A DNA stretch of 64,000 nt from Halomonas halmophila (GTDB lineage Bacteria > Pseudomonadota > Gammaproteobacteria > Pseudomonadales > Halomonadaceae): NCBI RefSeq assembly GCF_006540005.1, contig NZ_BJOC01000019.1:62001-126000 (forward strand). Direction: 5' to 3'. Position numbers and translations under genes: made by a program. The notes beneath the pieces were generated by a model. That model ran no database searches, was not told where the DNA came from, and was given only the letters and a program-made list of their open reading frames with translations. Each line of letters begins with the position of its first letter. The stretch's first letter is position 1. Below, piece after piece: positions 16,774 through 49,531 of the stretch.

Positions 16774-17994
16774 TTATAACGCTTGCGTCCCGCCGTCGTC
16801 CGCCCCCGATGCGGGCAGACCATGGCCGGACTGCTGACGATGCCACTCTTCGGCCTCGGCATGCAGGTAGCGGGCCGTGGTGTCGAGTCGTGAATGGCGG
16901 GCCGTCTCGGCCAGATAGCGCAGCTCGATGCCCGCTTGCGCCTGGTGGGTCAGCGCCGTATGGCGCAGCCAGTGCGGCGTGGCGCGACGCAGCTGCTGTG
17001 CCTCATGCTGGGCCTCGCCATCCGCCGACAGTCCGCGGGCATCCGCCGCCCGGGCGAAGGTGGCACGCATCAGTCGATAGACCTGGTTCTCCCCCAGGCC
17101 ACGCCGACCATTCAGACCACGCAGCACCGGCATCTCCTCGTCCGCCGCCGGTCGTGGCGGCAGGCCCAGCCCCTGTCGCCAGTCGGCCAGCAGCTGCAGC
17201 ATGTCCGGCGGCACGGGGATGCTCGCCAGCTTGCCGCCCTTCCCCGTCACCTGCCACCACCAGCGCCCCTCGCGGCGCTTGAAATCATTCATGCGCGCCG
17301 CTGCCATCTCGCCGATACGCGGCGCGAGCAGATAGGCAAAGCCGAACAACAAGCGCTGACGACGCCACTCGAACTGCCGGCGTCGGGACGCATCCTCCTC
17401 CGGCGGCCGATTCAGCCACTGCCATAGCCACTGCCACAGGGGCCGCTCCAGATAGCGCTCGACACTCGACTGGCGATTGTCCAGGCGGCGACGCTTGTCG
17501 CGCATCAGCCGAAAGGGGTTGTGCTCCAGCCAGGCCGCCTCGACCAGCCAGGCAAACAGCCCCTGGAGGATCACCAGGCTCTGGCGACGACTGGAGGGCG
17601 ACAAGGGACCGCGAAAGGGACGCCAAGCGGGGTCGTGGCGGGGCCTGGTCGGCCCGACCCAGCGCTCCCGGGGTCGCGGATCGGCCAGAAAAGCCTCGAA
17701 GTCATCCAGGTCGCGACGTTGCAGGTCCTGAAGTGACCGCCCTGCTTCGCGCAGCCACAGCAGCAGCCGCTCGGCCTCGCGCCGATAGGCACGCCGGGTA
17801 TTGGGGCTGGCGCGGTACTCGGCCAGCCAGCAGGCCACCGCCTCGGTATCGCTGGAAGCCTGGATGCGCCCGGATGACGACACAGGCAGCGCCGGGCTAT
17901 CCGCGGACGCATACAGCAGTCTACCGACCTCTTCGGCGACCGGTCTGGCCGCCGCATCGGACGCTGAATTAACAGGCAGCGAGTCGTCTTCCAT
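16774..17994 (-). CDS. Tyrosine recombinase / site-specific integrase
   Basis: A 406-aa DNA strand-exchange enzyme of the phage-integrase family. A SAM-like core-binding domain (VACWLAEYRASPNTRRAYRREAERLLLWL) precedes the catalytic domain with the first Arg in LLAPRIGEM, the Lys in TGKGGK, HWLRHT, and the Tyr in TTARYLH. All key residues are present, so it should be active. I chose ATG 17994, where an AGGAA site lies 7 nt upstream; a longer TTG-started frame would run into the palindromic operator. It diverges from the KfrA-like gene and lies 30 nt from sufE. No tRNA or att site is nearby, so it is not an obvious island integrase. Confidence 0.88.
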   Translation of the reverse strand: MEDDSLPVNSASDAAARPVAEEVGRLLYASADSPALPVSSSGRIQASSDTEAVACWLAEYRASPNTRRAYRREAERLLLWLREAGRSLQDLQRRDLDDFEAFLADPRPRERWVGPTRPRHDPAWRPFRGPLSPSSRRQSLVILQGLFAWLVEAAWLEHNPFRLMRDKRRRLDNRQSSVERYLERPLWQWLWQWLNRPPEEDASRRRQFEWRRQRLLFGFAYLLAPRIGEMAAARMNDFKRREGRWWWQVTGKGGKLASIPVPPDMLQLLADWRQGLGLPPRPAADEEMPVLRGLNGRRGLGENQVYRLMRATFARAADARGLSADGEAQHEAQQLRRATPHWLRHTALTHQAQAGIELRYLAETARHSRLDTTARYLHAEAEEWHRQQSGHGLPASGADDGGTQAL

Positions 17995-18122
17995 GGGGCA
18001 TTCCTGTGAGTGGTCGCGATCCTGGGTGATGCCCGTGCCTTTCGGCGCTGCGGGCACTGCCCTGCCCTTGCCTCGGTCCGGTTGGCACATCGGCTCGCCC
18101 AGTGTGGCGCTACACGGACAAT

Positions 18123-18199
18123 AATTCAAGATAAGACGCGTAATCTTGAATTTATCGACAATAGTGTAAATATATTTACGTAATACACCATTATGTAAA
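18123..18199. promoter_or_regulatory. Dense operator region between recombinase and KfrA-like genes
   Basis: AATTCAAGAT (18123-18132) and ATCTTGAATT (18143-18152) form a perfect 10-bp dyad with a 10-bp spacer. GTAAATATATTTAC (18166-18179) is a perfect 14-bp palindrome, and TTTACGTAA / TTATGTAAA (18175-18199) is a near-perfect dyad. A further palindrome, GCTGCC-A-GGCAGC, lies at 18237-18249. The divergent gap (17995-18340) is strongly AT-rich against its surroundings. By analogy with KfrA of plasmid RK2, which represses its own promoter, this is a candidate shared operator. Confidence 0.65.
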
Positions 18200-18340
18200 A
18201 CTCTTTATTTCAGCACCGGAACGCGCTATCCTGCGCGCTGCCAGGCAGCATCGGACACACGCCAAACAGGCCGGCACACACCAGCCATGGCCTGCTTCGG
18301 CTACCAGGGAAAACAACACGGGCCTTCACGAGGAGATCAC

Positions 18341-19387
18341 ATGGCACGCAGCGGTGTGCGATACGAGGATGTACAACGCGCCATCGACGCCCTGATGGCA
18401 CGCGGGGAAGCCCCCAGCGTGCACAAGATTCGTGAAGCCCTGGGCACAGGCAGCTTCACGACCATCAGCGAACACTTGCGCGAATGGCGCCGGCTGCGCG
18501 AGGAAAACCGCGATGTTCCGCCTCCTCAGGGCATGCCCACCGAGCTTCAGGCACTGGCCGAAGCGCTGTGGAGCCAGGCCCAGGAAGCCGCCAATGACGC
18601 CCTGGTGCATTATCGCCAGGAAGCCGATACCCGCGTGGAAGAGGCCCATCAGCAGGTTGCCGGGGCCGAGCGCCGTGCCGAGGACGCCGAACAGCGAGAA
18701 GCCGCCCTGTCCTCGCGCCTGACGGAACTCGATCAGCGTCTCGATGAGCGGACCCGTGAACAGGCGCAACTACAGGCCGAACACGATGCCCTGCAGGAGC
18801 GGCTGACCCGCGCGCAACAAGAGGTCGAGACCCTCCAGTCGCGATTGGAGGCCGCCAGACAGGAAGCCCGTGAGCAGGAGCAGGCCCACCAGCAGGCACT
18901 GGAAGCGCTGCAAACGAGCCTCGAGCAACGCCTGCAGCAGGAAGAGGAGCGCAATGAAAGCGCCGAGGCTCGCCTCATGGGCCTGCTGGATGAGGCCCGA
19001 CAGGAGCGCCAGGCGGCCGAGAAGGCCCATGCCGGACGCGAACAGCGGCTCGAGCGTCAGCTGGAAGATGTCCGGGCACAGCACAAGGCCCGCGAACAGG
19101 AGCTGTCCGAGGCCCAGCAGGCGCGACACGAGGCCGAACGGGCCCAAGTCACGGCACAGGAAAGAGAAACTGAGCTGCAGCGGCAGAATGAAGAACTGGC
19201 CGGGCGTATTACCGAACGCGATCGCCAGCTGGCCGAGCAGGCCGAACACTGGCAACAACGCGAGCAGCAGATGGAGGAGCGGCTATGGGCTTCGCTGGAA
19301 GCCTTGCGCAGCGAGTGGCGGGATGCGCGGGAGCGAGCCGAGGATACAACGGACTCACCTGCTCCGGAACGCGAGGACCCCGCCTGA
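18341..19387 (+). CDS. KfrA-like DNA-binding coiled-coil protein
   Basis: A 348-aa protein. The N-terminal domain (about residues 1-65; VRYEDVQRAIDALMARGEAPSV, GTGSFTTISEHLREWR) matches the KfrA_N DNA-binding domain. From about residue 75 to the end it is an almost unbroken Gln/Glu/Arg/Ala-rich heptad coiled coil. KfrA on plasmid RK2 binds DNA through the N-terminus and self-assembles through the tail. ATG 18341 has AGGAGATC upstream. The gene is divergent from a tyrosine recombinase, sharing a palindrome-rich control region. The role on a chromosome is unknown; nucleoid organisation or recombinase control are possible. Confidence 0.82.
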   Translation: MARSGVRYEDVQRAIDALMARGEAPSVHKIREALGTGSFTTISEHLREWRRLREENRDVPPPQGMPTELQALAEALWSQAQEAANDALVHYRQEADTRVEEAHQQVAGAERRAEDAEQREAALSSRLTELDQRLDERTREQAQLQAEHDALQERLTRAQQEVETLQSRLEAARQEAREQEQAHQQALEALQTSLEQRLQQEEERNESAEARLMGLLDEARQERQAAEKAHAGREQRLERQLEDVRAQHKAREQELSEAQQARHEAERAQVTAQERETELQRQNEELAGRITERDRQLAEQAEHWQQREQQMEERLWASLEALRSEWRDARERAEDTTDSPAPEREDPA

Positions 19388-41702: not shown

Positions 41703-41730
41703 TTGACGTCGCGTCAAAAATTGATAAGAT
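41703..41730 (+). promoter_or_regulatory. Promoter of tRNA-Ser
   Basis: TTGACG (41703-41708), a 16-nt spacer and TAAGAT (41725-41730) lie 15 nt upstream of the mature tRNA start. TTGACG-TCG-CGTCAA (41703-41717) is also a dyad overlapping the -35 box. Confidence 0.75.
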
Positions 41731-41745
41731 ACATCGCCGTGAGCC

Positions 41746-41835
41746 GGAGGGATGGCAGAGTGGTTGAATGCACCGGTCTTGAAAACCGGCGAAGGTGCGA
41801 GCCTTCCCAGGGTTCGAATCCCTGTCCCTCCGCCA
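41746..41835 (+). tRNA. serT: tRNA-Ser (anticodon UGA)
   Basis: The acceptor stem pairs GGAGGGA (41746-41752) with TCCCTCC (41825-41831), then discriminator G and an encoded CCA. The anticodon stem is CCGGT/ACCGG, with TGA at 41780-41782. The long variable arm (AAGGTGCGAGCCTT) marks a class II serine tRNA, and GGTTCGAATCC is the T-loop region. The sequence closely resembles E. coli serT. Its last 14 nt are part of the 56-bp attachment repeat. Confidence 0.98.
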
Positions 41836-41877
41836 CCTTCTTCAAGGGAATCAGCTACTTAGCTGGTTCCCTTTTTC
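41822..41877. repeat. Left 56-bp attachment repeat (attL-like)
   Basis: This segment is identical over all 56 bp to 46894-46949. It starts in the T-stem of tRNA-Ser, includes the CCA end, and runs through the tRNA terminator. Integration at a tRNA 3' end that regenerates the gene is the standard pattern of islands and prophages; here the shared block also regenerates the terminator. Confidence 0.93.
41844..41876 (+). terminator. Terminator of tRNA-Ser
   Basis: AAGGGAATCAGCTA (41844-41857) pairs with TAGCTGGTTCCCTT (41860-41873), a 14-bp stem with one G-U pair, followed by a T-run. A second intact copy lies inside the right 56-bp repeat at 46916-46948. Confidence 0.9.
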
Positions 41878-41903
41878 ATTTCAGCCCCTCCAAAAACGCG
41901 TTT

Positions 41904-41935
41904 TCTATAACGTCTATAACAGCCTCCGTTATAGA
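41904..41935. repeat. Two direct plus one inverted TCTATAAC next to attL
   Basis: TCTATAAC occurs at 41904-41911 and 41913-41920, with the inverted copy GTTATAGA at 41928-41935. The set starts 27 nt from the end of the 56-bp repeat. The layout matches integrase or excisionase arm sites and is mirrored by 46977-47006. It lies 187 nt upstream of the ImmA/IrrE gene, so a role as its operator is also possible. Confidence 0.7.
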
Positions 41936-42121
41936 GAATCGCCCAGCCCGGTGCATAAACGACTTTTTTCGACGAAAGTATGAAGCAAGCTCAGCGAACG
42001 AGAGTCAGGCCCCAACCTGCGGACACCTGAACCATTTGTGCCGCATGAGCCTCAGGCGCTATGCTCTATACATTGCAAAAAGATACACCGATACTCGAAA
42101 GCGGTGAGGCTAGGAACAGAC

Positions 42122-43294
42122 ATGGCCAAAGCAAATCCAGAAATTCTCGTTTGGGCAAGAGAAACTGCCGGCCTAAGCCTTGAGCAAGCGGCTAGCAAGC
42201 TGGGCCTGGGCAGCAAGAACACGCCAGGACCAGACAGGCTGGCAGCATTCGAATCAGGCGATAGTTCTCCGAGTCAGCCTCAACTGGTAAAAATGGCCAA
42301 GCACTACCATCGCCCATTTATTACCTTTTTTCTTCCAGCCCCGCCGCGCAACGCTTCAATGGGTGAAGATTTCCGTCGTCTCCCAGAAGCAAAACGAGAA
42401 GAAAATGAAGGCAGCGTAAACGCTCTTGTTCGCGATATCTTCCTTCGGCAATCCCTTGTAAAAGATGCACTCATCGATGCTGAAGAAGACGAAATAGTCG
42501 AATTTGTAGGCATGGGTCATGGCATGCCAGATGTAGATGATGCCTGCAGAGCGATCCGGGAATACTTTGAGATCGATATCGCCTCATATCGTGACATGAG
42601 AGATGCCCACGAGGCATTCAGCTACCTCCGAAGCAAGATTGAGAGCAAAGGCATTTATGTGTTGCTCATCGGCGACTTGGGTAGCTACCACTCTTCTATC
42701 AGTACCGAAGCCTTTCGTGGCTTTGCCCTATCTGATCAAGTCGCTCCATTCGTAGTCGTCAACCAGAATGACTCCAAGTCAGCCTGGTGCTTCACCCTAC
42801 TCCATGAGGTCGTACACTTGTGGTTGGGGAAAACCGGAGTCAGCGCGCAAACCCACGAACACAAGGTAGAACGTTACTGCAACGATGTAGCCAGCCATAC
42901 CTTGATCTCCGCTCATGAAGTTCGAGAACTCTATGAAGCGGCCATGAGATCGGACGAGGCCTTTGTACCCGCACTGCAACGGGAGGCTGGCAGCCTCAAT
43001 ATTAGCGCGTCACTGGTTGCCTACCGACTTTTCCGTGGAGCTCTCCTTGATCAAGCGCAATGGGAGAAGGCGAGCACTGAGCTTCGAGAGCTGTGGATAC
43101 AAAGTAAATCCCAGCCCAGAGGAAACGGCTCTGGCTCAAGCGGGAACTTTTATAACACGCAGCGCCATCGCGCAGGGGGCGCTCTTATCAGCCTGGTTCG
43201 TCGATCACTGCATGGTGGTGTTCTGACTGAAACTAAGGCAGGACGGGTTCTGGGAGTCAGCCCGGGAAATGTCGCGGAAATGGTAGGGTTGTAA
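42122..43294 (+). CDS. XRE-ImmA/IrrE metallopeptidase (antitoxin-like partner)
   Basis: A 390-aa fusion. The N-terminal helix-turn-helix covers about 8-65 (ILVWARETAGLSLEQAASKLGL), a family linker with MGEDFRRLP follows, then a zinc-peptidase domain with HEVVH near residue 230 and a downstream acidic ligand region. This HTH-ImmA/IrrE architecture is a common partner of toxin-like genes on mobile DNA and can act as a regulator cleaved or activated by stress. ATG 42122 has TAGGAA upstream. Its TAA overlaps the DUF4411 start by one base. Base composition is clearly more AT-rich than the core genes, which indicates recent transfer. Confidence 0.9.
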   Translation: MAKANPEILVWARETAGLSLEQAASKLGLGSKNTPGPDRLAAFESGDSSPSQPQLVKMAKHYHRPFITFFLPAPPRNASMGEDFRRLPEAKREENEGSVNALVRDIFLRQSLVKDALIDAEEDEIVEFVGMGHGMPDVDDACRAIREYFEIDIASYRDMRDAHEAFSYLRSKIESKGIYVLLIGDLGSYHSSISTEAFRGFALSDQVAPFVVVNQNDSKSAWCFTLLHEVVHLWLGKTGVSAQTHEHKVERYCNDVASHTLISAHEVRELYEAAMRSDEAFVPALQREAGSLNISASLVAYRLFRGALLDQAQWEKASTELRELWIQSKSQPRGNGSGSSGNFYNTQRHRAGGALISLVRRSLHGGVLTETKAGRVLGVSPGNVAEMVGL

Positions 43295-43818
43295 TGCCTG
43301 ACGAACAAAAAAAGCTGTTTCTTCTAGATGCCAATGTCATTATTCATGCTCACGATTATTACTATCACATGGACAGAGTTCCTGAATTCTGGCGTTGGCT
43401 AGAATTCCATGCTGAAAATGGTTCTATCCGCATGCCTCTTGAAACAATTGATGAGGTTCAAGGAGGTGATAAAGCGCAGCATGCTAGCTGGGCAAAGAGC
43501 CGAGAAATTCGCGACATCCTTGTATTGCAAGAAGAATTCGATGCTAATCTATTGAACAGAGTTCTAGACCATGGCTATGGACCCGACCTCAATGAAATAG
43601 AGATTGACAAAGTGGGTAAAGATCCCTTTCTAGTCGCCTACGGACTGCGCGACCCCGACAACAGGGTTGTTGTGTCCAACGAGGTGCCTAAACCTACGGC
43701 TCGACGGAAAAACCGCAAAGTCCCAAATGTTTGCGCAGATATGGGGGTCCGCTGCTGTAACGTATATTCGCTCTTGCACGAATTGGACTTTCGAACCGAC
43801 TGGCGAGACCATGTATAG
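43294..43818 (+). CDS. DUF4411 PIN-like protein, probable toxin
   Basis: A 174-aa protein with a PIN-like fold. The first acidic site is FLLDANVIIHAHDYYY, later acidic residues occur in LETIDEVQGGD and KVGKDPFLVAYG, and the VVSNEVP segment is typical of DUF4411. PIN proteins are usually metal-dependent ribonucleases. It is translationally coupled to the HTH-ImmA/IrrE gene, an arrangement predicted to be a type II toxin-antitoxin-like pair. It is AT-rich. Toxicity is inferred from family and context, not shown. Confidence 0.88.
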   Translation: MPDEQKKLFLLDANVIIHAHDYYYHMDRVPEFWRWLEFHAENGSIRMPLETIDEVQGGDKAQHASWAKSREIRDILVLQEEFDANLLNRVLDHGYGPDLNEIEIDKVGKDPFLVAYGLRDPDNRVVVSNEVPKPTARRKNRKVPNVCADMGVRCCNVYSLLHELDFRTDWRDHV

Positions 43819-43862
43819 CACTAGGCCCCACGCTTGCCCGCCTCGAACACTACACTCGCACT

Positions 43863-45331
43863 ATGCCGATATTCGACATCACTGGCCTAGCAATCTGCGC
43901 CCTAGCCCTAGGCGGCACTGACATGACACACCTCGAGGGTGGCATTGTAATAACTCCCTGGATTCTGCACACCCTACGAAGCTAAGGCGGGATGTGCTCG
44001 GGGTGCCGTATAGTCCAGAGACTGATGCGCCGCTCTTCGTTGTAGTACCAGATCCAGCCTTGGCTTGGACCAGAGACTCGAAGCGATAGAGCCAGATGCA
44101 CTCTTTCTGAAGAAGCGATCGACGAGCCCGTTCTGCTCCGAGGTATACGGCGTCGTAAACTCCTGCGTGAGACCATAGGCCTTCACCGTGCCGGTGTAGT
44201 GGCGACTGCTGAAAACGAGTCCGTTATCTGACCGAAGGGCTAACAATTGCTGAACACATCCCAGCGCTCCCAGCCGATAAATCAGTGCTGCCTCTAGCCA
44301 GGCCTTCGCTATCTTGCTGCTGTCATTGTCCGATAATCTCCAACCAAGAATCTCACGTGTGCAGCAGTCGATGATCACCGCCAGGCTGGCGCGCCGATCC
44401 TTTCCACACCACAGATGGCAGGATCGGTCGCCCATCGCTCATCAGGCCTCGAGGCGACGGATGGCAGACTCTTGGCACGAGGGCGGAAGCCCTGAGGCCT
44501 CTTGTGCACCTGCCAGCCTTTGAGCTGTAGGATGCGCTGGACCGGCTTGCGGTTCTCCCCCAGAACGCGCGCCAGGCGGCAATAGCCATAAGTGGGGAAC
44601 CGCTCCAAAACTAGCTTGACTCGGCTAGTCAGCTCCGTGTTGATCGCACGACTCCGCATCTTGGGACAGTAACACAACGTCCTCCGGGGAAACCCCAGCC
44701 ACCGGCAGAGCTTGACGAACGATACCGCATGGCCCTCTTGGGCCATATCTGCCTGCAGCGACCTTACGAGTTCTCGTCCTCGTCGAGCAGGCGCTTGAAT
44801 TTTTTTAGCGCATAGATCTGCAGATGGGCCTCGCCCAGTGCCTCCTAGTTTCCCGGCGCTCGGACTCATGCTGCTCACGGATGTCCTTGGGACGGGCCTT
44901 GAACCCGTTGTCCATGCTGCGCTGGGCCTCATCAATCCAGCCCTCGACTTCGGAGACGGTGAGATCGCACTGGCGAGCCACCTCAGCCGCCGTGGTCTGC
45001 CCTTGAAGATATGGCGGGCTTGCGCTTCGCGATCCATCGTTTGATGGGGTTGTCGTCACTCATCCTGTCCTCATGATGGCTGCACTATACCCTGCGCAGC
45101 TATGAGGGGGTCGCATCAGCATTGGCATGTGGCCTTTCATCAGCAGGAGCCATCCCTGGCTTCACCTTGGGCCCTGCCTTGCTCATCAACAAGCCGAGCC
45201 TCCTATTTGTCGCATTGATCCCCATCGGCATTATGCTCTCCAGTGGTGAGCTAGGCTTCCTGGAAAAAGGCTTCGAGGAAGCCAAGCCGGAGATTCGCGG
45301 CATACTGCGAAGGAATTACTGCTCTCGGTAG
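43863..45331 (+). pseudogene. Small membrane-protein ORF split by an IS3-family insertion
   Basis: The left part (43863-43982) encodes 40 residues from ATG (MPIFDITGLAICALALGG). The right part (45103-45331) encodes about 76 residues (YEGVASALACGLSSAG, then hydrophobic stretches and a charged C-terminus). Removing the insertion plus one copy of the duplicated AGCTA joins the parts in frame into a 116-aa protein with two or three hydrophobic segments. I do not recognise the family. It converts a seemingly empty stretch into a disrupted cargo gene of the island. Confidence 0.6.
43985..45097 (-). mobile_element. Decayed IS3-family insertion sequence
   Basis: About 1.1 kb flanked by AGCTA (43980-43984 and 45098-45102). 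On the minus strand an OrfA-like part (45.06-44.80 kb: TTAAEVARQCDLTVSEVEGWIDEA) is followed by an OrfB part with RTLCYCPKMRSR and FPTYGYCRLARVLGENRKPVQRILQ, then an rve integrase core (VIIDCCTREILGW, LRSDNGLVFSS, TTPYTSEQNGLVDRFF). The D-D-E residues can be seen but sit in different frames, so several frameshifts have inactivated it. Terminal inverted repeats are too weak to define the ends; these rest on the target duplication. Confidence 0.8.
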
Positions 45332-45347
45332 CCTGCTGGTCGCGGCG

Positions 45348-45872
45348 TCACTCTATTGCCGCCTCCAGCGACTCGACCACTACTGCTGTGCCGCTGGCGA
45401 CCAGGAACAGCATCGACTTTCCTCCGCCCGAGAACTCGCTGTAGTCCAGATCAACCGCAATCACGGCATTGCCGCCCACGTCCACAGCTTCCCGCCGCAG
45501 TTCGTTGAGGCACGTCACGCGAGCGTCGCGGAGGACCTTCTGAGATGACTGGTTGCGACCCCCGACGATGTCGGAGAGCCCGGCAAACATGTCGCGGAAC
45601 ACGTTCATGCCGAACACACACTCTGCCGTCACGATGTCGATCGTCTTGACGACGCGCTGACCCTCGATCGATTGCGCGGTAGTTACTGTCGCCTCGAGCG
45701 CTGCTCTCTCCGCAGCCTCTCGCGCTTCTCGCGCCTCATTGCGGTTGGGCATATCGCTATCGCCAGCTATGCCGCGCTTTTCGCGAACCTGCCTGTTGTT
45801 ATCAATGATGCAGTCATGGCAATAAGTGCTCATTAATCCGGCATCTGCGCCGCATGTCCTACATTTGGCCAT
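45348..45872 (-). CDS. Zinc-ribbon + YbjQ-family (heavy-metal-binding-like) protein
   Basis: A 174-aa protein. The N-terminus has two cysteine pairs (CRTCG and CHDC, residues 4-20) forming a zinc ribbon; a charged Glu/Ala/Arg-rich helix (about 40-65) links to a YbjQ-like domain (about 70-165) with [34 protein letters not shown] and [12 protein letters not shown]. The domain forms pentamers in related proteins; its function is unsettled. It lies on the minus strand, alone, within the island. Confidence 0.85.
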
Positions 45873-46030
45873 ATCACTCCCCTGCGCTGTGGCTTTGTGG
45901 CTGCCAACTCAGAATAGGGCAAGCCGCCACGCAGATGGAAGGTCGAGGTTTCCACCAGAACGCCCGCATGGTTATGTTATTGACGGGGCCTGCGGACCCT
46001 GACCACATAGGGAACTGATAAGGACCAATA

Positions 46031-46624
46031 ATGCGATACCTCGCCGCCGTGATCGTCGCGAGCGCCTTCCTTTCGGGGTGCGCCAATCAACAGACCATGA
46101 GCCGCGACGACTTCATTACCACGACGCAGCGCAAATATGACGGAGTAAGCGAGCGCGAGTTCTACAAGGCCGCCGAGACGGTGTTCAAGCTGTCGGACAA
46201 GGACGATACAGACTTCGCCTACCCTAGCGAACACGCCATGATCGTTGAACACGACTGGTCGCTCTATATGGTCCTGGCGGCAGCCAGAGGCACGCATACC
46301 TGGCAGATCAAGACCGAGCCTGCCGATACGGATCTGACAGCCAACGCCTATGTCTCCATGCAGGCAGCCAATATGACAGGAATGCCGACTGGAGGCGGTG
46401 GCGCATCAGTGATGACCTCACCTTCCATGCAGAACATGGTCAACACGCCTGCGATCTATGAGCTGTTCTGGACTCGCATGGACTACCTTCTCGATAAAAG
46501 CCAGGACTGGCCAACATGCGAGGACTGGGAAGCGAAGGTGGACCGCGGCGAAACCTACGGCACTTTCGATCCGCTATGCGTGGCAATGAACACCGACGAC
46601 CTGCTGCCAGAAGACATGCGGTAG
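46031..46624 (+). CDS. Hypothetical lipoprotein, island cargo
   Basis: A 197-aa predicted lipoprotein: signal peptide with lipobox AFLSGC (Cys17), then a soluble domain with TTTQRKYDGVSEREFYKAAETVFKL, a HDWSLYMVLAAARGTHTWQI strand region and a Gly/Met-rich loop. I do not recognise a family. It is the last clear gene before the right attachment repeat. Its N-terminal SRDDFITTTQRKYDGVS pattern is seen in lipoproteins with unknown roles in other bacteria, so it is probably real and expressed. Confidence 0.75.
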   Translation: MRYLAAVIVASAFLSGCANQQTMSRDDFITTTQRKYDGVSEREFYKAAETVFKLSDKDDTDFAYPSEHAMIVEHDWSLYMVLAAARGTHTWQIKTEPADTDLTANAYVSMQAANMTGMPTGGGGASVMTSPSMQNMVNTPAIYELFWTRMDYLLDKSQDWPTCEDWEAKVDRGETYGTFDPLCVAMNTDDLLPEDMR

Positions 46625-46789
46625 CTCTACCCTGCTGACCGATATGGGAAATCTGCACCACGGCTGATCCAAATCTGGACCAACCTCGCCACTGGCGACG
46701 TTCGCTGCCAAATGTGAGCCATGGCCACATTTACCCTGCTGGGGGATGAACGCAGACTTGCGTCCATTGCCCTCGCCGCCCTGCTGACG

Positions 46790-46856
46790 TGTATCATCGA
46801 GCATCACCCGAAAACATTTTTATGGTGTGGTGCATGGTGGGATAGCTGAAAAATCC
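46790..46856. repeat. Dispersed 67-nt repeat, copy A
   Basis: It aligns with 49862-49927 at about 80% identity with one gap. It lies 38 nt before the right 56-bp repeat. On the minus strand both copies can be read as a similar peptide around KxFSGDA, but copy A has a stop just after it, so coding is doubtful. Confidence 0.7.
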
Positions 46857-46893
46857 GCACATAAGATGCTGATTTAACAGTACATATCGCGGA

Positions 46894-46949
46894 CTGTCCC
46901 TCCGCCACCTTCTTCAAGGGAATCAGCTACTTAGCTGGTTCCCTTTTTC
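46894..46949. repeat. Right 56-bp attachment repeat (attR-like)
   Basis: Identical over 56 bp to 41822-41877: the last 14 nt of tRNA-Ser, CCA included, followed by the same hairpin terminator. The rest of the tRNA is absent to its left, as expected for the distal end of an element integrated at the tRNA 3' end. Confidence 0.93.
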
Positions 46950-46976
46950 GTTTGCGGTGGCTAAAAACGGCCAAAA

Positions 46977-47006
46977 GTGCAACGGGTGCAACGCCTGCCG
47001 TTGCAC
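46977..47006. repeat. Two direct plus one inverted GTGCAACG next to attR
   Basis: GTGCAACG at 46977-46984 and 46986-46993, and CGTTGCAC at 46999-47006. The first copy begins 28 nt after the 56-bp repeat, against 27 nt at attL, and the internal spacing is nearly the same as for TCTATAAC there. Confidence 0.75.
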
Positions 47007-47124
47007 CACACACTCCAGACCAGCAAACAATAGACTAAAGCTGTAGATTGGCCCGCCTGTACAGCTCGACCTTCGCAGGCACACGAGTCAAAAGCTACTC
47101 TTGGGTGCTGGCTTGCGCAAAAGA

Positions 47125-47146
47125 AGGCCGCCCCGAAGAGCGGCCT
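47125..47146. terminator. Hairpin upstream of the secreted repeat protein gene
   Basis: AGGCCGC (47125-47131) and GCGGCCT (47140-47146) form a 7-bp stem with an 8-nt loop. It resembles a terminator for transcription entering from the left, but it lacks a T-run. Confidence 0.5.
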
Positions 47147-47266
47147 ATCTATCCAAGTACTCGACGATGTGAAACCCTACGCCTCCCGCCCTCGTATTTA
47201 TGAGCACGCTTACCGCTTCCTCGTCTGATACGGCGGTAGTGCAGCTCACGACACGAGAGGTACATC

Positions 47267-47593
47267 ATGAATAATGCCATCAAGATTGCAGCGCTTACGG
47301 CCTCAATGATCATGCTTTCAGGCATGGCCATCGCCGACCATCATCGTGGAGATACGTCCCAGATGCACGAAAACGAAGGCGAATCCCTCGTGCAAGATGG
47401 CGGCGTACAGTCCGATCACAATGCCGAACGAGCAGATACTGGTGGCACCCTCGATGACGAACCAATCATCCAGGATGGCGGGGTTCAGTCCAACTACAAT
47501 GCCATGCGGGAGACAAAGGGCGAGTTGGAGGCCGACCCCATCGTCATGGACGGTGGCGTGCAATCAAACCATAACCCTGAGGTCAGCAACTAA
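47267..47593 (+). CDS. Secreted protein with three DGGVQS(N/D) repeats
   Basis: A 108-aa protein. A signal peptide (residues 1-23, ending AIA) precedes a strongly acidic mature part of about 85 residues. Three copies of a 9-residue motif, DGGVQS-(D/N)-(H/Y)-N, start at residues 44, 70 and 95, a period of 25-26, each preceded by a hydrophobic pair (LV, II, IV). Histidines and acids in the motif could bind metal. GAGAGGT precedes ATG 47267. I do not recognise a family. It probably acts in the periplasm or outside the cell. Confidence 0.75.
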   Translation: MNNAIKIAALTASMIMLSGMAIADHHRGDTSQMHENEGESLVQDGGVQSDHNAERADTGGTLDDEPIIQDGGVQSNYNAMRETKGELEADPIVMDGGVQSNHNPEVSN

Positions 47594-47773
47594 CTGACAC
47601 TGCCTGACTGCCGCCACAAGGCAGAGCACATCAGCAAGTGAGCCTACTCGCCCCTGTTCCTGGCAGGGGCGAATATTGTTCAATGGCAGAACCACACCCG
47701 GCTCGCCCCCCCTTGTCAATTGCCATCAGAAGTGACCCACCAGCGGTCAACAAAAATGACCCACCCGTGACTG

Positions 47774-48420
47774 TCAGCTGAGCGTCTTCTGCTTCAGCCG
47801 GTAGCTCTCCCCGCCGAGCAGGTAGAGGTGTGAGTGGTGGATGATCCGGTCGACGATCGGCACCGCCACGTTGTCGTCATGGAAGAACTCCCCCCAGCTG
47901 GTGAAGTCCTTGTTGGTGGTGATGATCAGCGACCGGTACTCGTAGAATCGGTTGATCAGTTGGAACAGCGCGTAGCGCGCCTGCCGCGCTCATCGGCAAA
48001 TATCCCAGCTCGTCAATGACCAGAGCGTCGACCTTGGCCAACTTCTGGAGTGTCTTCTTCAACTCGCCCTTCATCACGGCGATCTCCAGCTCCTCGACCA
48101 GGTGCAGGGCGTTGCGAAACAGCACTCGGTAGCCGGCCTCGATGGCCTTCTGGCCGATGCCGATGGCCAAGTGGGTCTTGCCCACCCCCGGTGGGCCGAT
48201 GAACACCAGGTTCTCGCGGTTGTCGAGGAAGGCGAAGTCGAGCAGGGCGCTGACCTGGCGCTTGGTGATGGTGGTCTGGTATCGGTAGTCGAACCCTTCC
48301 AGTCGCTTGTCGCTGGGGAAGCCGGCCTGGCGCTGGTAGAGATCGATGCGCTTCGTCTCGCGGTCTGGCGCTCGTGCTCGACCAACATGTTGGCGAAGGC
48401 CAGGTAGGAGACCTCGTTGG
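47774..48420 (-). pseudogene. istB: istB, IS21 helper ATPase (frameshifted)
   Basis: The AAA+ ATPase of IS21 transposition. The Walker A motif FIGPPGVGKTHLA and Walker B VDALVIDELGYLP are intact, but the frame breaks near 47985, after LGYLPMS, and near 48367 on the N-terminal side. The C-terminal part resumes in another frame (YEYRSLIITTNKDFTSWGEFF) and stops at 47774-47776. The N-terminus seems joined to the end of istA in one frame, which suggests a small deletion between the genes. Confidence 0.8.
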
Positions 48421-49531
48421 CCTCGGCCTGGGCCAGCAGCTCGGTGAGGTCCCCGGCGATGGCCTGCTCTAGGTCGGCTTCCTGCTGGCGGTGGTCGCGG
48501 TAGTAGTTCTCATTGCGTGAGGTGTATCCCTTGCCCAAGTGCAGGGCATGGGTGGCGATCTCCTCGCCGCTCTCCAGGTCATGGATCGCCAGGCGACCGT
48601 CCGCTTCCCGGGCGCCGACCCGCCCCTGCTGGTAGGCCATGGGCACCGAGTACCTGTTGGCCTTCCAGGCGATCAGTCCGGTCTTGTCGAACTTGCGTGG
48701 GGCCAGGCCGTCGGCGTCACGCCCCAGGCAGGCCGGCATCAGGTAGGGGAGCAGATGGGCACGCTCCTCGGCCATGAAGTGCTCTTGCGGCTGCCGGCCG
48801 GTGGTGCCGTGGAGGCGCACGTTGGCCACCTCGTCGAGCCACTGCTGCACGTGGCACCGCAGGTCGGCCTCGTCGCGGAAGGTCTCGCCGTAGAACGCAT
48901 CCTGCTTGGCGTACTTCACCCCGGCCTCGACCTTGCCCTTGCTCTCCGGGGCGTAGCCGCAGCAAGCATGGACCCGAAAGTCGGCGGTAGTGGCGTACGC
49001 ATGGAAGCGCTGGTTCACCTCCAGCTCGCGGAACTGCTCGCTGATCACCACCATCTTGGTCTGGTCGTAGACGCACTCCTCGGGCAGGCTGCCGAAGTAG
49101 CGGAAGGCCTCATCGTGCAGGCGGATCAGCGTCGCGGTGTTCAGCGATTCCAGGCTGACGCCGACTTAGGACAGGCGCGAGTAGGCGAGCACGAACACCA
49201 CAAAATAGACCGTGCGCGGCTCGCCGCCGATCATCACCTCGCGCAGTTCGCCGGGATCCACCTGGCACTGCACGCCGGGGACCATGTCCAGCACCGGCTC
49301 GTAGTAGCGGCGCTGGCGGCTGGCGACGGTGTTGCGGGAGATGCCCAGCTCCTGGCCGATGGCACAGATGGACAGGCCCTGTCCCTCATCATGTAACGCT
49401 TTGATCTTGTGAATCATTCCCCAGTCCTTTACATCTCCGCCCCGACCCTTGGCTGAGCCGATACGATAGGTGGATGGTGGCAGCGCTGCCACCTCGGGGG
49501 GGGGCAAAAGCGTTGGCCGATACTGGGTCAC
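48410..49531 (-). pseudogene. istA: istA, IS21 transposase (nonsense mutation, truncated)
   Basis: The N-terminal HTH (LSICAIGQELGISRNTVASRQRRY) and start of the DDE core (QVDPGELREVMIGGEPRTVYFVVFVLAYSR) are followed by an in-frame TAA at 49166-49168. The same frame then continues with DEAFRYFGSLPEECVYDQTKMVV and the acidic KGKVEAGVKYAKQDAF part. The C-terminus runs straight into istB-like sequence. The single stop codon plus the shortened 3' end show that it is inactive. Confidence 0.8.

Follow-up and report, generated by a model that had tools for sequence, protein, structure and literature searches.

A 5-kb segment at tRNA-Ser(UGA) of Halomonas halmophila is probably a composite remnant of phage and satellite integrations, at a tRNA whose elements bring terminator-like hairpins of their own

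What kind of element lies between two copies of a tRNA end when no integrase is found between them? The question is raised by a segment of about 5 kb in Halomonas halmophila, part of a stretch of 64,000 nucleotides (contig NZ_BJOC01000019.1, positions 62,001 to 126,000; the window in what follows), that starts in the 3' part of a tRNA-Ser(UGA) gene and ends in a second copy of the last nucleotides of that tRNA and the hairpin behind it. A preliminary description had taken the two repeated blocks to be the paired ends of one 5-kb element. Here we favour, with a probability of roughly 0.75, a different origin, namely that the segment is a composite, a scar left by one integration after another in the 3' part of tRNA-Ser(UGA), in which the left end of a phage is fused to the right end of a satellite. 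The target and the repeats are arranged as follows.

41746..41835, + strand: tRNA-Ser(UGA), the integration target (ARAGORN)
41822..41881, + strand: left repeat copy, consisting of the last 14 nt of the tRNA and the terminator
41844..41876, + strand: phage-type terminator, hairpin AAGGGAATCAGCTACTTAGCTGGTTCCCTT with a T-run, attributed to phage family A (the same type is found at attL, the left attachment site, of A and B elements whose right site, attR, precedes another terminator)
46894..46953, + strand: right repeat copy, the terminator half of which belongs with the footprint of phage family B (sequence comparison)

The two copies make up the single direct-repeat family here, 60 nt long with 59/60 positions identical and a spacing of 5072. 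The first 56 nt are without difference, confirming the reported identity of 41822-41877 and 46894-46949, and by simple arithmetic an exact match of 56 bases far exceeds chance expectation. That the block begins inside the tRNA 3' end and spans the hairpin terminator also holds, with the tRNA ending at 41835 and the hairpin and T-run lying within the left copy. When 90 genomes of the genus were searched with the 60-mer, 23 gave matches, and more than one full-length copy was present only in the genome of the window and in genome G022, where a prophage of about 56 kb sits between the copies.

No site-specific integrase was found between the copies (41881 to 46894) in either the open reading frames (ORFs) or the Pfam matches, in agreement with the earlier account; there is only the rve domain of an insertion sequence (IS). 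Across the whole genome there are three PF00589 matches (C44, C45 and C19:78849-79361), and a search for the phage integrase family of tRNA-Ser(UGA) found nothing at E <= 1e-40. Two of the three we take to be XerC/XerD-like, with similar matches in six other genomes compared, while the third recurs upstream of tRNA-Ser in relatives. A PF00589 match about 23-36 kb from tRNA-Ser recurs in several of the relatives checked and seems chromosomal. At 16774-18129 (- strand) the window encodes a 451-aa tyrosine recombinase, next to a coiled-coil protein at 18287-19387 (+ strand) that is presumably KfrA-like.

Among the closest matches, the tRNA and this terminator are followed by sequence of two kinds, type A with TATAACG repeats and type B with GTGCAACG repeats. 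Type A follows the left copy in the window and type B the right copy. The two arrays differ in sequence and share a layout of two direct units and one inverted unit.

41905..41938, + strand: A-type arm repeats, two direct units and one inverted (A-type units also stand before attR of the G186 prophage)
46977..47006, + strand: B-type arm repeats, two direct units and one inverted (the same layout lies beside integrase-bearing elements in G011 and G022)

Both arrays belong to mobile elements with integrases, so that the larger, integrase-bearing versions sought in relatives do exist. In G186, from another genus of the family, a prophage of about 56 kb occupies the same tRNA; it encodes an integrase, its attL has the A array and A-type units precede its attR. 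Nine of its proteins were compared with PHROGs and eight matched, including terminase, head, portal-like, RecE/RecT and replication families. The prophage of G022 (56.7 kb) has B at attL and an integrase and B-type inverted unit before attR, and G011 has an element of about 14.5 kb in which B at attL adjoins the integrase gene and a B-type unit precedes attR. A and B integrases are 65-69% identical, and the G022 element shares many blocks with the G186 prophage at 72-83% DNA identity. The GTGCAACG flank had also been considered as native chromosome; this was dropped, as the same layout adjoins the integrases of G011 and G022. Further out, the gene region of a secreted repeat protein (47071-47705) is 89% identical in G007, where it lies directly behind an A footprint and not, as here, behind a B footprint.

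An exact search of viral contigs with the A arm gave no match, and a search of phage records with the A integrase returned 86 records, the best row at 34% identity. Three viral contigs do encode close relatives of the A integrase, two of which (L107 and L108) have arm and T-loop motifs beyond the integrase gene.

The A family accounts for more than the arm repeats at the left of the segment. Positions 41726-41983 align at 89% with the left end of the G186 prophage, and a second match to the same prophage lies further in, with a pair of genes between the two.

42122..43294, + strand: XRE and ImmA/IrrE (M78) protein, antitoxin-like (Pfam; best RmrA profile 2.6e-13; homologue in the B-family prophage of G202)
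43294..43818, + strand: DUF4411 protein, putative toxin partner (Pfam PF14367)
43842..43947, + strand: 5' part of a small gene cut by an IS (43842-43945 has 79% DNA identity to G186 303-406, the first small gene beside attL of the A prophage)

The homologue of the XRE-ImmA/DUF4411 pair in the B-family prophage of G202 (69% DNA identity over 1692 bp, 4.7-6.4 kb from attL) identifies the pair as cargo of the A/B phage group. The DUF4411 partner had no PADLOC match at 0.01, while the neighbouring XRE-ImmA protein matches RmrA profiles. At the left end of the G202 prophage (L194), umuD/umuC-like and endonuclease-like genes, named by eye, precede the XRE-ImmA pair. The left part of the segment thus holds the phage-type attL, the arm array and the adjacent phage genes to be looked for in a remnant of a family A prophage.

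The right end is of another kind. The right copy retains just 14 nt of the tRNA, and this stub, together with the roughly 100 bases ahead of it, is the right end of a satellite family with P4-type integrases, termed E2 here.

46791..46889, + strand: E2-type satellite right end (profile of seven E2 ends)
46890..46907, + strand: attR stub CGGA/CTGTCCCTCCGCCA (recurs in genomes of the family)
45943..46642, + strand: lipoprotein-like block, satellite cargo (a satellite-like island of G007 has a block with 94% identity over 701 bp)

Allowing at most one mismatch, the start of the right copy, CGGACTGTCCCTCCGCCA, was found in 29 of 275 genomes of the family (own included) at 30 places, 22 of them exact, compared with 8 matches for the reversed pattern. 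The sites that were read have stubs followed by assorted hairpins, and ORFs resembling P4-type integrases lie, as judged by eye, beside about half of the 16 stub sites for which the upstream sequence was listed. E2 is the subset of stub sites with a conserved stretch ahead of the stub. A profile of seven E2 ends, picked by eye from the 29 genomes for their likeness to the right end of the window but built without the window sequence and without the stub, had its best match in the 64-kb window at 46791-46880 (27.1 bits, E 1.3e-7); the next match reached 4.7 bits, and in ten shuffled windows no score rose above 4.2. The E2 element of G204 (9.0 kb) begins with the tRNA, its own terminator and repeated ATGTTGGGTA units, followed by an integrase and then Toprim, DUF3987 and ERF; the E2 integrases of G204 and G148 carry Arm-DNA-bind_3. 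An island beside tRNA-Pro in G007 has an integrase, Toprim, DUF3987 and a type ISP restriction enzyme together with the lipoprotein block, and the lipoprotein itself occurs in 4 of the 275 genomes, own included. The right part therefore holds both a satellite attR end and satellite cargo, as a remnant of an E2 satellite should. Five exact matches to the stub in viral contigs were taken to be other phages and none was counted: three have no terminator-like hairpin following, and L196 and L197 have a weak terminator candidate after the stub.

Could the whole 5 kb be a single family A prophage that has lost its body and integrase, the right copy being its own attR cut to 14 nt by chance? The left end and the cargo are indeed of phage type, and A/B elements do yield pairs of attL and attR at tRNA-Ser. 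The attR copies of A/B elements, however, hold about 61-70 nt of the tRNA, the cut point CGGA/CTGTCC recurs in the 29 genomes noted above, the bases ahead of it match E2 ends, and neither TATAAC nor GTTATA occurs within 46501-46893. Our first model, in which the right copy was a randomly cut attR of an A phage, was dropped when the cut point proved to be a recurring stub, and the single decayed prophage must be considered unlikely.

Nor does the segment look like an intact element. It lacks an integrase between its att sites, and attL and attR are not of one integrase family, with A arms on the left and an E2 end on the right; the integrase and replication module that a P4-like satellite or phage-inducible chromosomal island (PICI) would have of its own are missing from the 5 kb. 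The preliminary description allowed for a satellite mobilised in trans or a remnant that had lost its integrase. A remnant of mobile elements without integrase at tRNA-Ser is indeed what is found, but a genuine small satellite moved in trans by a helper phage is improbable: its sharp ends, near-identical repeats and antitoxin/toxin-like cargo pair would suit such an element, yet the ends belong to different families, no resident helper integrase was found among the three PF00589 matches of the genome and a gene inside the segment is broken by an IS. That the tRNA end and terminator were simply duplicated on the chromosome around native genes, as the identity of the 56 bp might suggest, is very hard to reconcile with the rarity of two full copies (2/90 genomes, the other having a prophage between them) and with flanks that both match the ends of mobile elements.

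The two 56-bp blocks are accordingly unlikely to be the paired ends of one element, as had been claimed, because the left block adjoins A arms, the right block starts at an E2 attR and the right terminator goes with an older B footprint. The length of the repeat is explained in the same way. Its first 14 nt are the att core and the remainder is the phage-type terminator, present twice; the 56 bp owe their apparent length to two phage integrations, by A on the left and by B on the right, which deposited terminators of one and the same type.

The composite origin suggests an order of events. A new element would land next to the tRNA and displace older ones outwards, and as A, E2 and B follow one another from the tRNA, B would have come first, E2 next and A last. 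A B-family phage may thus have integrated and left its terminator and arm repeats; an E2 satellite, of which the right end and the stub CTGTCCCTCCGCCA persist, would then have entered between the tRNA and the B footprint; and an A-family phage would have entered beside the tRNA with its terminator, arm repeats and cargo. Since both integrases are absent, and with them the far arm of A and the left end of E2, a deletion must, on this reasoning, have joined A and E2, taking the phage body with its integrase and far arm and the left part of the satellite with its integrase. The fusion point probably lies between 45331 and 45943, and an IS would also have struck the first phage gene. With ends from different families no single integrase should excise the 5 kb, so that the remnant is probably non-excisable. 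It retains the antitoxin/toxin-like pair, the lipoprotein gene and a tRNA terminator supplied by a phage.

Single-copy sites bear on the same history. G015, G064 and G085 have the tRNA, the phage-type terminator and a B array, without a match to the 5 kb. The sites with one block that were expected in relatives therefore exist, but they keep a phage arm, and their use as clean empty sites was dropped. Another pile-up is seen in G022 and G202, where a B prophage lies over an A footprint. A simpler decay at the same tRNA is represented by a 2.8-kb remnant in G229 (C1:2572425-2575312, L175) with attL, attR and a cut integrase. As read by eye, an attachment region of the A/B family (terminator and arms) is joined in G111 (C1:2443781, L064) to what appears to be the 5' part of an initiator tRNA, and a further type of element at the same tRNA, with TTTGTCCCA repeats and the stub GATAGTCCCTGTCCC, occurs in G211 (L171, L086) and G013 (L022); the G211 element of this type has its own hairpin after the tRNA.

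Several points weigh against the composite origin. No examined locus has A and E2 side by side without a deletion, the whole 5 kb not having been a query against other genomes, and the fusion point itself was not seen. The stretch 45331-45943 is attributed to neither the phage nor the satellite. By blastn just two of the seven E2 ends match the window, those of G088 and G148, with an identity of 81-82% across some 60 bases. The lipoprotein block is itself mobile, its copy in G015 being on a contig with genes that look phage-like by eye, and the B flank might represent not a footprint but an old allele of the lineage.

The remaining features of the segment and its surroundings are these.

43948..45118, - strand: decayed, IS3-like insertion that carries an rve domain, GCATTG on both flanks (Pfam; IS type and boundaries by eye)
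45122..45331, + strand: ORF, possibly the 3' remainder of the IS-cut small gene (by eye, no score)
45348..45872, - strand: YbjQ-family gene (Pfam PF01906)
47877..49531, - strand: decayed IS21 relic beyond the element (Pfam)

Decayed IS copies, of IS21 and rve type, are thus present at the tRNA-Ser hotspot.

In relatives of the segment, the claim of a terminator brought in by the element itself is borne out. Both ends were compared in 15 elements, eight of A/B type (G011, G022, G090, G097, G186, G202, G229 and G237) and seven of E2 type (G045, G088, G134, G148, G204, G244 and G261), the ends of G097 and G045 being on two contigs. A hairpin and T-run within 12 nt of CCA at attL, a criterion fixed after the sites were seen, was present in 15/15 elements (14 tabulated together and G186) compared with 22/600 random windows from relatives; an additional comparison used a looser criterion. 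The terminator after attR, compared by eye, differs from that at attL in 13 of the 15, the exceptions being G022, with the same phage type, and G202, with none recognised. Where the two differ, as in G186 and G011 with the phage-type hairpin at attL and a different hairpin after attR, the donor of the terminator can be told. By eye, the hairpins at the two ends of the G007 island at tRNA-Pro also differ.

The phage-type hairpin is present in 28 of the 275 genomes (own included; none for the reversed control) and stands directly behind the tRNA-Ser 3' end in 27 of 28 loci (one locus for each genome), G185 being the exception; a third copy in G022 is likewise without a tRNA end. In G011 and G022 the variable arm of the tRNA differs between attL and attR, and that at attL matches relatives (G075; G026 and G015), which under a single exchange puts the crossover on the 3' side of the variable arm and, for G011, ahead of the terminator. 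Elements of both kinds thus carry, as far as sequence goes, a terminator-like hairpin beside the tRNA, which would be expected to act as a terminator.

On balance we think that the phages and satellites at tRNA-Ser(UGA) of this bacterial family systematically swap the terminator of the tRNA for one borne by attP, their own attachment site, and that this is a mobile part which can outlive the elements as a scar and would insulate them from the tRNA promoter. Some observations count against so general a statement. The A/B integrase family is found in 15 genomes, and seven of these (G111, G201, G211, G227, G241, G253 and G256) stand outside the eight compared at both ends, the second end lacking or the junction being odd. 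Four of them (G227, G241, G253 and G256) do have the phage-type terminator at attL, but in G201 and G211 the tRNA is followed by other hairpins, and this type is therefore not universal near the A/B integrase family. The hairpins are predicted terminators, and some of those called native may derive from older elements.

The replacement of the terminator is of more interest than the remnant. A remnant of this sort is what repeated integration followed by decay ordinarily leaves behind, although in the present case the two parents can be named. At tRNA-Ser(UGA) a terminator is brought along ready-made, beside the tRNA end, by elements whose integrases are of two different kinds. One can thus test by what means an element preserves proper expression of the tRNA that it targets, and whether its integrase is screened from the tRNA promoter or coupled to it. 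There is also a caution in it, as long repeats at tRNA islands can stem from separate integrations with a common terminator and are no proof of a single element.

Among the known systems that resemble the segment most are cis-mobilisable elements (CIMEs), which have lost integration and transfer genes but retain attL and attR, and the tandem accretion of integrative and conjugative or integrative and mobilisable elements at one att site (PMC5704250). The remnant described here is likewise flanked by att sites, without integrase and probably formed by decay and accretion, but it comes from a phage and a satellite, has att sites of two different families and should not excise as a unit. For PICIs, satellite tandems, damaged tRNA fragments at attR and long blocks of identity are described, and fusion of a prophage with a PICI by deletion across an att site was weighed as a possibility for elongated fis PICIs (PMC10111431); here both parent families are found at one tRNA-Ser. 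Antitoxins with an ImmA domain are described for RosmerTA (PMC10440598).

It is frequently the case that attP completes the target gene (PMC12884075). Phage YA3, at a tRNA-Ser of P. aeruginosa, restores the last 63 bp of the tRNA (PMC7326022), but its identity block, as given in that account, stops 1 bp past the tRNA. A statement that attP supplies the tRNA terminator was not found in the literature searched, from which most subscription papers were outside scope, and older work may contain one; passages of PMC2951348, PMC2784084 and PMC8022706 have no bearing on the point. The opposite arrangement is that of ICEKp1 at tRNA-Asn, where the native terminator of the tRNA comes to lie, after integration, at the element's far end, the tRNA promoter drives int, and stem-loops in the int leader are a potential attenuating terminator (PMC13023037). 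Each of the elements compared here has instead a strong hairpin and T-run at most about 12 nt from the tRNA end, which should stop transcription from the tRNA early.

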